Part shown: piece by piece, positions 33,839-37,502 of the stretch
Position numbering within the stretch: the stretch's first letter is position 1
Layout of the letters: the number at the start of each line of letters is the position of its first letter
DNA from: a virus
Virus record (IMG/VR): IMGVR_UViG_3300046512_000059
Location: 1-37,502 of that record
DNA length: 37,502 nucleotides
Strand: one strand, 5' to 3'
Notes under the pieces: generated by a model
The model's input: only the letters and a program-made list of their open reading frames with translations
Database searches by the model: none
Told to the model about the DNA's origin: nothing
Made by a program: the position numbers and the translations under genes

Positions 33839-33930
33839 ACAAACTGAAACGACCTCTGCTGGCAGATTGATATTCTCTAGATTAAATTGATCTCCCCTAT
33901 CATTTGTTACAGCTAAAAAGGAAGTCAGCA

Positions 33931-34290
33931 GTGAAATTAAGAATCGATTCAGTTCATGGTCATGGCGATCACAAAGAAGAGCGAGTTAGGTTGACCGCAT
34001 TAGAAGATTGCAATTTGCATTACTACATGATTTCCGACGCGACTTTCGCCAAGGGTGGCGGGCTCTCAAACAAGCACCGGCATTCTAAGTGGTTCGACCC
34101 GAAGGAAGTAAAGAAAGGGGATAGAGTGGTGCTTTATACCCGAAAGGGTAAGGACGTGACTGTCAAGAGTGATGGTGGAGTCGTATGGCACAAAGTGTAT
34201 TGGGGGCTTAACTCTGGAGTGTGGAATGACGATGGTGACGCTGCAGTTCTGATCAATATTAATGCGTGGAACAGCACGGCAGTGAAGTAA
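33931..34290 (+). CDS. Lamin-tail-domain-like protein, 119 aa
   Basis: The start is GTG 33931 with AAGGAAG six bases upstream. The whole protein fits the lamin tail domain plan: an opening IDSVHGHGDHKEERVRLTA strand pair, a KWFDPKEVKKGDRVVLYTRKG edge, and the closing GLNSGVWNDDGDAAVLIN, the family's most typical block. Bacterial lamin tail domains are often found next to nucleases or at surfaces; here the domain stands alone, with no signal peptide. The gene is AT-rich relative to its neighbours and lies between Rz and a vestigial Rz end, so it was probably inserted. Its role is unknown. Confidence 0.55.
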   Translation: MKLRIDSVHGHGDHKEERVRLTALEDCNLHYYMISDATFAKGGGLSNKHRHSKWFDPKEVKKGDRVVLYTRKGKDVTVKSDGGVVWHKVYWGLNSGVWNDDGDAAVLININAWNSTAVK

Positions 34291-34650: not shown

Positions 34651-34890
34651 GTGGCTGACGTGGAAGGCGTGGTGCTGAGCGAGAAAATGAAGCGAGAGGC
34701 GGACCGGCTGCTGGCGCAGATTGTCAGGGCCGATTCGATGATCATTGCTGTAAAGGCGGGAGCGCGGGCTGATGGCTTCGTGCTTGGGCTGGAAACCGGC
34801 GGGACTTTGCGCGCCGGCGATGCGGAAAGGCTGTACATCATTTTTGAGGCCGCGCTGGTGGAGCGCCTGAAAACTCTGACGCACAGTTGA
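34651..34890 (+). CDS. Hypothetical protein, 79 aa
   Basis: The start is GTG 34651 with AAGGTAATAG upstream. A helical protein (SEKMKREADRLLAQIVRADSMIIAVKAGARADGFVLGL) with no known domain. Its stop touches the converging SRAP gene with no space between. The function is unknown. Confidence 0.6.
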   Translation: MADVEGVVLSEKMKREADRLLAQIVRADSMIIAVKAGARADGFVLGLETGGTLRAGDAERLYIIFEAALVERLKTLTHS

Positions 34891-35571
34891 TCAATCGACT
34901 GGCTTGATCAGGTCCGGACCCTGGTTCCGGACATTCCCCACTGCTCGGTCAACCTTGAACCACTCGAAAACCTCTGTCGGCTCACCCTGGTGCAGCACCA
35001 TCTGTTCGGCGCGATCTTTCGGTGTGGCCGGATCCAACCATTCCCGTGCGAGTTCAGGCGATAACGCCACCGGCCGCCGGTCGTGGATATCAACCATTCC
35101 GCCGGCACTGTCGGCGGTGATGATCACAAAGCCATCATGCTCGCTTGGGTCATGCTCGTTATTCGGGTATTGGCCGATAGCAGCGCAGAGAATGGGTGAC
35201 TGATCACGGTGACGGATTAGGTAAGGCTGCTTCTTAGGGCCTCCCTCATCAACCCACTCGAACCAATTGTTGATTGCGATGATCGCCCGGTTCGGCCAGA
35301 TTGCACGGAAGAAGGGGCCGTGCGCCACTTTTTCGACCCTGGCGTTGATCGGCGCCGCGCGATCCTTTGCCCAATGCGGGCGCCACCCCCAACGCACCAT
35401 ATCGGCGTGGAGGAACTCGCCCTCTTGGTGAAACAGCGCGAGCTGAGACGTAGGTGCCGCGTTGTAGCGTTCTAGCGGTTGTTCATTGACAGTGCTGATC
35501 AAAGCGTTCGGCATGCTGAGCGCCTCCACGAAGTCATGAATGCCGCTGTATTGGGTAAGTCGTCCGCACAT
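34891..35571 (-). CDS. yedK: SRAP / YedK-type SOS response-associated protein
   Basis: A 226-residue SRAP (HMCES/YedK) protein, which forms a covalent thiazolidine bond with abasic sites in single-stranded DNA and shields them from cleavage. All key residues are present: catalytic Cys2 after Met removal (MCGR), Asn76 (INARVE), Glu105 (NNWFEW) and His163 (DIHDRRPV). GAGGG stands seven bases before ATG 35571. It is 22 bases downstream of a LexA-box-controlled gene, so it is probably SOS-induced. Whether it belongs to phage or host is not settled. Confidence 0.9.
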   Translation of the reverse strand: MCGRLTQYSGIHDFVEALSMPNALISTVNEQPLERYNAAPTSQLALFHQEGEFLHADMVRWGWRPHWAKDRAAPINARVEKVAHGPFFRAIWPNRAIIAINNWFEWVDEGGPKKQPYLIRHRDQSPILCAAIGQYPNNEHDPSEHDGFVIITADSAGGMVDIHDRRPVALSPELAREWLDPATPKDRAEQMVLHQGEPTEVFEWFKVDRAVGNVRNQGPDLIKPVD

Positions 35572-35593
35572 TGTCAGGCCCTCGCATGATCTC

Positions 35594-36316
35594 TCAGCGT
35601 AGACCCGCTGCCGTTTTCTTTACAAAACCTTTTCCGGCGCAGGTCGGACAATCCTCCCGGGCATCAAAGCGATCGAGGCAGGTGGGGCACATGCAGAAGG
35701 CCGCCGACTCAATGTGGGGCCGCACCTTTTCAAAAGCGTGCAGATCGCGTTCTTCATGTGCGACTTGCGCTGCGTCTATAAGCGCTCGATAGGCGTCAGC
35801 GTCAGAGAGAGGGTGGTGGGTGATGCCGGCGATCATTCGTTCGGTCTCGACCAGCTGATACCGGCGCCCATTCATTTCCAGCACCAAGCCTGTAATCCGT
35901 CCAATCTTTCGGGAAAGTCCCAAGGTTAGCCGCACACCATCCGCGTCAGAGTAGACCTTGCCGTCGTAGGCGAAGGAAGCGCCGCGCGGCTCATCACTTT
36001 CGAAGTTGAAGATTGACCGGCTGATAGTGCCCAGCAGATTCCCGTTGTCGATCTGAACGACGTCATAGGTAGAGGCGCCGCGGTAGTGCCCGGGCGAGTT
36101 CTGCAGCTCCTCGACGGCGTGCCAGTACGCGGCGTCTGCCATTTCGTTCATGTCGAACTGCTCAAGCTGATCAATCAGGCCCTCATCGAGGAGCGTCGCC
36201 GCCATCTCGCGGAGGGTTTCCCTGTGCCCCTCTGGGTTTTGTAGGCGGAAGTCCTGATCATCGAGAGTTGCGCGCCATCGCTGGAGTCGGAGGGTTTTCG
36301 CTTGGTCGAAATTCAT
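35594..36316 (-). CDS. Hypothetical protein with C-terminal DnaJ-like zinc motif
   Basis: A 240-residue protein. The N-terminal 60 residues are helical. The middle is a mixed domain (GHYRGASTYDVVQIDNGNLLGTI, LVLEMNGRRYQLVETERM). The C-terminus has CPTCLDRFDAREDCPTCAGKGFV, a pair of CxxC motifs 15 apart that would bind one zinc, like half of the DnaJ Cys-rich region. It leads an operon with the SRAP gene, and a LexA box stands 25 bases upstream of the ATG, so it is expected to rise after DNA damage. The exact function is unknown. Confidence 0.7.
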   Translation of the reverse strand: MNFDQAKTLRLQRWRATLDDQDFRLQNPEGHRETLREMAATLLDEGLIDQLEQFDMNEMADAAYWHAVEELQNSPGHYRGASTYDVVQIDNGNLLGTISRSIFNFESDEPRGASFAYDGKVYSDADGVRLTLGLSRKIGRITGLVLEMNGRRYQLVETERMIAGITHHPLSDADAYRALIDAAQVAHEERDLHAFEKVRPHIESAAFCMCPTCLDRFDAREDCPTCAGKGFVKKTAAGLR

Positions 36317-36340
36317 GAAACGGGATTCACTGTACGAACG

Positions 36341-36356
36341 CTGTATGTATGTACAG
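36341..36356 (-). promoter_or_regulatory. LexA box (SOS operator)
   Basis: CTGTATGTATGTACAG matches the consensus CTG-N10-CAG, with the TATA-type alternating core. It is 25 bases upstream of the zinc-motif gene on the minus strand. The response regulator gene ends on the other side, so the box can serve only the zinc-motif/SRAP unit. Confidence 0.85.
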
Positions 36357-36463: not shown

Positions 36464-36877
36464 TTAAGTGTTTTTTCGAAGGGGATGATTGGGCTGAAGT
36501 AGATCTGTTACAGCCATCACTAGCTCATCCATAGACCAAGGCTTTTCTAAGTAAATTGTTGAGGATGGGATCTCCAGGGGATCTAGCGCGTAGCCAGAAG
36601 TGAGAATCGTAGCTGTATCGGGCCACTTTGCCTTGACCAACGCTATGAGTTCTGCGCCTTGAAGTTGACCAGGTAAGCCGTGGTCCGAAATCACAAGAGG
36701 ACAATTCTCTTGCATGCTCAGCAAGTGTTCAAAGGCGCTGTCTGCGGTGTCGAAAGCCAGGCACTGAAGACCGATCTCGGTCAAAATCTCAACCATCAAT
36801 AATCGAATTGTCGGGTCGTCCTCTACGACGATCACGAATCCGGATACAGGAGAAAGCTTGCCCCATTCTTCGTTCAT
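36464..36877 (-). CDS. Single-domain response regulator
   Basis: A 137-residue CheY-like receiver without output domain. The acidic pair is D20-D21 (VVEDDP), the phosphoacceptor D65 (ISDHGLPG), the switch Thr93 (ILTSGY) and the conserved Lys112 (LEKPW). It is probably a host-type or transferred signalling protein that passes phosphate or binds a partner. No kinase gene is near. Confidence 0.85.
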   Translation of the reverse strand: MNEEWGKLSPVSGFVIVVEDDPTIRLLMVEILTEIGLQCLAFDTADSAFEHLLSMQENCPLVISDHGLPGQLQGAELIALVKAKWPDTATILTSGYALDPLEIPSSTIYLEKPWSMDELVMAVTDLLQPNHPLRKNT

Positions 36878-37419: not shown

Positions 37420-37502
37420 TGGCGGAGGCGATGGGATTCGAACTCATGGACCTGTTACAGTCGACGGTTTTCAAGACCGTTGCCTTAAACCACTCGGCCA
37501 CA
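37420..37502 (-). tRNA. tRNA-Ser (anticodon UGA), 5' end cut by the window edge
   Basis: On the minus strand the sequence has the D arm (GGCCGAGTGGTTTAAGGC), anticodon stem and loop with TGA (ACGGTCTTGAAAACCGT), a long variable arm, the GTTCGAATCCC T arm, and an encoded CCA at 37420-37422. The long variable arm confirms Ser. About seven bases of the 5' acceptor strand are outside. The 3' end faces the prophage, a common attachment site. Confidence 0.93.

Follow-up and report, generated by a model that had tools for sequence, protein, structure and literature searches.

A LexA-box-preceded operon of Pseudomonas prophages combining an SRAP gene with an exchangeable first gene

The window, i.e., the whole DNA analyzed here, comprises the 37,502 bases of an IMG/VR virus record, and its genes (among them those for tape measure, central fibre J and spanin) are typical of a siphophage prophage of Pseudomonas. 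At its right end an operon was identified on the minus strand, in which a LexA box precedes a gene for a 240-aa protein with a zinc motif (the zinc gene), followed by a gene for a 226-aa SRAP protein. The coordinates originally predicted for this layout were confirmed (Table 1). Both reading frames lie on one strand and are separated by 22 nt. To the left, the operon is bounded by a small convergent gene and by the lysis genes. In many relatives lacking SRAP, this phrog_36962 gene comes directly after the zinc gene. A 128-aa protein encoded behind the lysis genes (33904-34290, plus strand) revealed a sub-threshold match to the Lamin Tail Domain (E=1e-4). The right-hand neighbors of the operon are a response-regulator gene, a small gene of phrog_12397 and a tRNA-Ser in truncated form. 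The first of these (36464-36877, minus strand), situated between the LexA box and the tRNA, encodes a stand-alone receiver domain of 137 aa, a 50-60% identical copy of which exists in opposite orientation in some relatives. The tRNA-Ser fragment at the window end (37420-37502) was read by eye, ARAGORN making no call there, and probably marks the attachment site. The description of the locus as the prophage edge was about right, with the qualification that in some relatives up to ~4 kb separates the operon from the conserved tRNA-adjoining gene.

Table 1. Position of the operon, its elements and its downstream neighbour in the window
Feature	Position	Strand	Evidence
Small convergent gene, phrog_36962; downstream boundary of the operon	34651..34890	+	
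SRAP gene, YedK/HMCES type, 226 aa; second gene	34891..35571	-	Pfam, YedK structures, active-site residues
Zinc gene, 240 aa, phrog_19595; first gene	35594..36316	-	ORF, profile match, AlphaFold
Zinc tail CPTCLDRFDAREDCPTCAGKGFV, residues ~210-232	35624..35692	-	Cys conservation
N-domain-coding part of the first gene, residues ~10-72	36101..36289	-	Matches to small LexA-controlled proteins
Additional half-site shortly after the box, TGTACAG (in the window CGTACAG)	36329..36335	-	Conservation
LexA (SOS) box CTGTATGTATGTACAG; minus-strand reading CTGTACATACATACAG	36341..36356	-	Pattern match and conservation

The LexA box lies 24 nt ahead of the zinc-gene ATG at 36316 and is the sole CTGT-N8-ACAG sequence of the window. 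Since this bare pattern is expected by chance about once in every two windows (0.53 per window), the single copy alone constitutes little proof. Compared to the extended consensus CTGTATATATATACAG, the box exhibited two mismatches, and only 0.01 sites with up to three mismatches are expected per window. Conservation is a stronger test than a pattern match. The zinc gene had 87 distinct relatives, 82 of which possessed enough upstream sequence for this test. In 76 of these 82, an exact box was located 38-41 nt ahead of the start codon, in 63 cases exactly at -40. In four of the six exceptions, CTGT-N8-CCAG stood at the corresponding position. The information content of the half-sites, calculated from 73 distinct upstream regions, was 1.96 bits per position, compared to 1.14 bits in the 45 nt upstream and 1.37 bits in the 20 nt downstream. 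Hence, the zinc gene shows what characterizes members of the LexA (SOS) regulon, a conserved CTGT-N8-ACAG near the start codon. The fixed spacing and the better conservation of the half-sites than of their flanks corroborated the claim that the zinc gene is under LexA control, and for the operon as a whole the predicted LexA control is strongly supported.

At the extra half-site, the G-T-A-C-A-G positions reached 1.8-2.0 bits in the same 73 upstream regions. This site may belong to the promoter or represent an additional LexA half-site. A search for a sigma-70 consensus promoter at the operon found none. At loci of the type known from phage F116 (L289-L310 and others), CTGT is in many cases replaced by CTGG at the same half-site of the box (16 of 43 are exact), and LexA control of the loci with CTGG may be weakened or lost.

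The second gene had been described as a complete SRAP gene, which proved to be correct. Its product matched the family model PF02586 over the full length (E=8e-47, profile positions 1-214 of 214) and the YedK structures with E=3e-50, and the catalytic set C2, N76, E105 and H163 was invariant in all 60 aligned sequences. For YedK, the roles of C2, E105 and H160 in the chemistry are established (PMC9436759). As the active site is complete, the protein is expected to cross-link to abasic sites, and its combination with LexA control makes an SOS-induced abasic-site function of SRAP a sound prediction.

The zinc protein matched the phrog_19595 profile over its full length (E=1.9e-96, residues 4-236) and ends in CxxC-x9-CxxCxGxG. 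Its four cysteines (positions 210, 213, 223 and 226) were found in 44 of 44 homologues, down to 30% identity. An AlphaFold model based on 44 sequences (mean pLDDT 84.6) is composed of a helical N-terminal domain (the N-domain, residues ~10-72), a beta middle domain (~82-167), two helices and the Cys-rich tail. Foldseek comparisons of the model with PDB and BFVD did not disclose any match at E<=0.001, nor did the sequence match solved structures. RIG-I-type proteins, the top fold matches in PDB, were discarded as noise (TM 0.1). The original prediction spoke of a DnaJ-like CxxC pair. While the spacing of one motif justifies this wording, kinship to DnaJ was rejected, since the protein possesses no J domain and gave no DnaJ family match in Pfam or NCBIfam. 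The first protein of the F116 type has no zinc tail, so that the cassette as such can do without it.

Overlooked in the earlier picture of the zinc protein was that its N-domain is common to small LexA-controlled proteins. Residues ~10-72 matched small proteins encoded in other Pseudomonas genomes, the first one found being an 83-aa protein with a LexA box of its own. An alignment of 16 sequences (A4), with the window protein as its first row, defined a helical domain of ~62 aa with the pattern W..(L)..D......P..H..L..A..L...G.ID...L.D..ELAD.A..A.E.L, to which the zinc protein conforms. The phrog_6137 profile matched 14 of the 16 members, and Pfam contained no matching model. The N-domain was detected in 217 of 399 sampled Pseudomonas genomes and in 56 of 298 genomes of a family-wide sample, but in a class-wide sample of 274 genomes only in the centre genome itself. 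Judged by these samples, the N-domain is restricted to Pseudomonas.

An exact LexA box was present within 450 nt upstream of 42 out of 90 sampled N-domain loci, and none occurred in the remaining 117,306 bases of these loci. The LexA-linked subfamilies mostly consist of proteins of ~80 aa; in these small subfamilies, 36 of 44 loci contained the box and 37 of 44 a neighboring phrog_5560-type gene. Two other subfamilies had neither a LexA box nor an SOS or phrog_5560 neighbor (0 of 47), and therefore the N-domain itself is no proof of an SOS role. The phrog_5560 protein (~98 aa, ending with ..YAQSWWCR) is the usual operon partner of the small N-domain proteins behind LexA boxes (e.g., at L367, L368, L392, L399, L401, L412 and L419) and did not match any model of Pfam or NCBIfam. 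At two loci for which longer flanks were available (L483, 3669-3684; L484, 4666-4681) a single LexA box resides between SRAP and a divergent phrog_5560/N-domain operon, possibly forming a two-way SOS promoter, and in phage pAN the SRAP gene is followed by that of a phrog_5560 protein. At least some of the small N-domain cassettes adjoin phage genes. We regard the shared N-domain as the best clue to the role of the zinc protein, which most likely assists the damage response by binding nucleic acid or protein.

Two further candidates for relationships of the N-domain were examined and dropped. At one locus (L494, 3958-4983; G328:C10) umuC apparently lies in two distant pieces, the N-domain gene being situated directly behind the 3′ piece. 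A link to UmuC (L381/L494) was not counted, as umuC is split there and the other umuC matches are 1-4 kb away. PA0922, the gene of the LexA regulon that is divergent from dinB, was not accepted as a member of the family, because the dinB-divergent gene at locus L517, in a P. aeruginosa-like genome, has a LexA box and no N-domain.

To judge the pairing of the zinc gene with SRAP, the neighbor survey proposed by the original prediction was performed. A full-length SRAP gene followed the zinc gene in 38 of the 87 relatives and a partial one in two, which means that the two genes are not rarely neighbors. In 37 of the 38 cases SRAP started 23-26 nt past the stop codon of the zinc gene. Among Pseudomonas genomes sampled regardless of SRAP, 10 of 15 full-length zinc-type loci contained it. 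At SRAP-less loci, convergent lysis-side genes or varied accessory genes come next; the slot behind the zinc gene is taken by Abi_C, DUF2971, acyltransferase and GAF/membrane protein genes at L173, L184, L039, L008 and L112. The converse survey covered the nearest 80 SRAP loci in IMG/VR, 77 of which had more than 200 nt upstream. Here the zinc gene preceded SRAP at 38 loci and the gene of an unrelated coiled-coil protein (PseuP_222 type) at 36. All 74 loci with an identified upstream gene were thus of one of these two types, and 62 of them had an exact box within reach. The pairing is accordingly real but loose, and the zinc gene and SRAP are no obligate pair, since the coiled-coil first gene is about as frequent.

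In a tree of 59 SRAP sequences, the well-supported branches cannot be reconciled with fewer than four changes for each type of first gene, so that repeated swaps of the first gene along this tree are required. In the phages F116 and Presto, the LexA box is followed by a 171-aa zinc-less relative and SRAP, and Meadow and LPPA36 harbor a diverged zinc family with the box kept and without SRAP, some IMG/VR relatives of which do have SRAP. From these layouts we concluded that the LexA promoter is constant and the first gene exchangeable, and that SRAP is the favored second gene. The zinc protein is probably not an obligate subunit of SRAP, because the coiled-coil protein takes its place in closely related operons.

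With moderate confidence, we interpret the operon as a LexA-driven accessory cassette of the prophage, in which SRAP shields abasic sites and the zinc protein acts as an SOS accessory. According to this reading, the two genes form an accessory ('moron') operon that the Pseudomonas siphophage prophage carries between its lysis genes and its att site, and that would be repressed in the lysogen by the LexA protein of the host. Upon DNA damage, RecA would become active, LexA would be cleaved and both genes would be transcribed, alongside and independently of the prophage's own repressor. SRAP would then link via Cys2 to abasic sites in ssDNA, shielding them during replication of damaged cells or of the induced phage. 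The zinc protein would contribute an N-domain typical of SOS-linked small proteins of Pseudomonas, joined to the beta domain and the zinc tail.

The swaps of the first gene make it a serious, though in our view unlikely, alternative that two independent morons merely share one LexA promoter, the zinc protein having no connection with abasic sites or SRAP. It would account for the presence of SRAP at just 38 of 87 zinc loci, for the at least four exchanges on the SRAP tree and for the diversity of the slot where SRAP is lacking, including Abi_C, acyltransferase and DUF2971. On the other hand, no other second gene is nearly as common as SRAP, its distance from the zinc-gene stop codon is conserved (37 of 38 loci), and SRAP is combined with N-domain proteins in several different arrangements.

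For the zinc protein itself, the main rival reading is that of a LexA-controlled antirepressor or induction regulator following the logic of phage 186 Tum, with SRAP as a passenger. A LexA-driven prophage gene of such a role exists in the genus: PP_3901 of P. putida KT2440, controlled by LexA1/LexA2, is reported in PMC4595014, citing Abella 2007, to be needed for prophage genes to be expressed upon damage. We located this gene by means of a published primer and found a LexA box 35 nt before its start codon; moreover, the zinc gene is kept without SRAP at more than half of its loci. However, neither tblastn nor HMM searches matched PP_3901 to the zinc, N-domain, coiled-coil or phrog_5560 proteins. 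Out of 35 prophage records with the zinc gene, 26, including most of those above 50 kb, encode an S24-type self-cleaving repressor of their own, which reduces the need for a separate induction switch. Besides, the zinc gene belongs to the accessory region near the lysis genes, and small proteins devoid of the beta and zinc parts also contain the N-domain. An induction regulator is thus distinctly improbable.

We consider it very unlikely that the cassette serves in phage conflict, SRAP guarding phage DNA against defences that generate abasic sites by DNA glycosylases, or the cassette guarding the lysogen against other phages. Glycosylase-based defence does exist, and abasic-site sensing of the YedK type is cited in this context (PMC11078745); Abi_C and other accessory genes also occupy the same slot in some relatives. 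But PADLOC gave no match for the zinc protein or SRAP, modified bases are not known for the present phage, and SOS timing suits damage tolerance better. A role of the zinc protein in late phage gene expression, as transcription factor or antiterminator, is hardly credible, as the very weak match of its zinc region (E=0.029) to TIGR02642, which we take to be a prophage family compared with lambda Q, scored 14 against a cut-off of 101 bits and covered the Cys-rich tail alone, and as the late genes are situated upstream of the zinc gene and run in the opposite direction.

Beyond the accessory cassette in which SRAP shields abasic sites, we tentatively suggest, with somewhat less than even confidence, that the N-domain may represent an undescribed, Pseudomonas-restricted family of SOS effectors, located in interchangeable LexA cassettes of prophages and repeatedly combined with SRAP. 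Cassettes with the N-domain alone, fused to the beta and zinc module, or beside phrog_5560 would then be interchangeable forms, and together they would provide a second damage response, timed by LexA and run by the prophage parallel to its CI switch. The domain provides a handle on a widespread unannotated family, which over half of the Pseudomonas genomes sampled contain; the subfamilies linked to LexA are a defined set of candidate SOS genes absent from Pfam and NCBIfam.

Several features of the locus have counterparts in known systems. The product of the second gene resembles the SRAP/YedK/HMCES family (PF02586) in its full-length match, in all catalytic residues and in its association with SOS genes. 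Whereas the classic neighbors of SRAP are umuDC, imuAB-dnaE2, dinB or Ku/ligase, it is here the second gene of a LexA-driven two-gene operon of a prophage, whose first gene is exchangeable. Prophage members of the family are known (SPBc2 YoqW and a Burkholderia prophage; Aravind 2013, PMC3765255), and the 2013 paper (PMC3765255) already described the occurrence of SRAP in SOS operons and prophages as well as zinc-ribbon proteins with genes next to SRAP and Ku. Like the zinc protein, these are small Zn-chelating proteins encoded next to SRAP, but they were reported from Ku/ligase operons and not from prophages, a distinction drawn from their description. With the DnaJ zinc-binding domain the zinc protein shares one CxxCxGxG motif and the CxxC-x9-CxxC arrangement; DnaJ, however, contains four CxxCxGxG repeats and a J domain, while the zinc protein has two CxxC motifs, only one of them CxxCxGxG. 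The cassette of F116 and Presto (F116p69 to F116p67), situated between integrase and lysis genes, likewise consists of a LexA box, an N-domain protein and SRAP, yet its first protein is the zinc-less one (phrog_8717), and a 30-aa ORF lies ahead of SRAP. PP_3901, too, is a Pseudomonas prophage gene with a LexA box near its start codon, and with measured damage induction; it encodes, however, an unrelated 86-aa protein that is reported as needed for induction of prophage genes.

The literature searched contained no description of the N-domain, of its link to LexA or of the exchangeable first gene. Thus, phage SRAPs in SOS contexts are known, whereas the N-domain and the exchangeable first gene appear to be new. 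Earlier explanations of phage SRAP, as a lysis switch (Aravind 2013, PMC3765255) or as a protection of viral replication (PMC8424206), came without regulatory evidence. As the architecture with the LexA box in front recurs in dozens of Pseudomonas prophages with varied first genes, phage SRAP becomes testable within the LexA regulon of the host.
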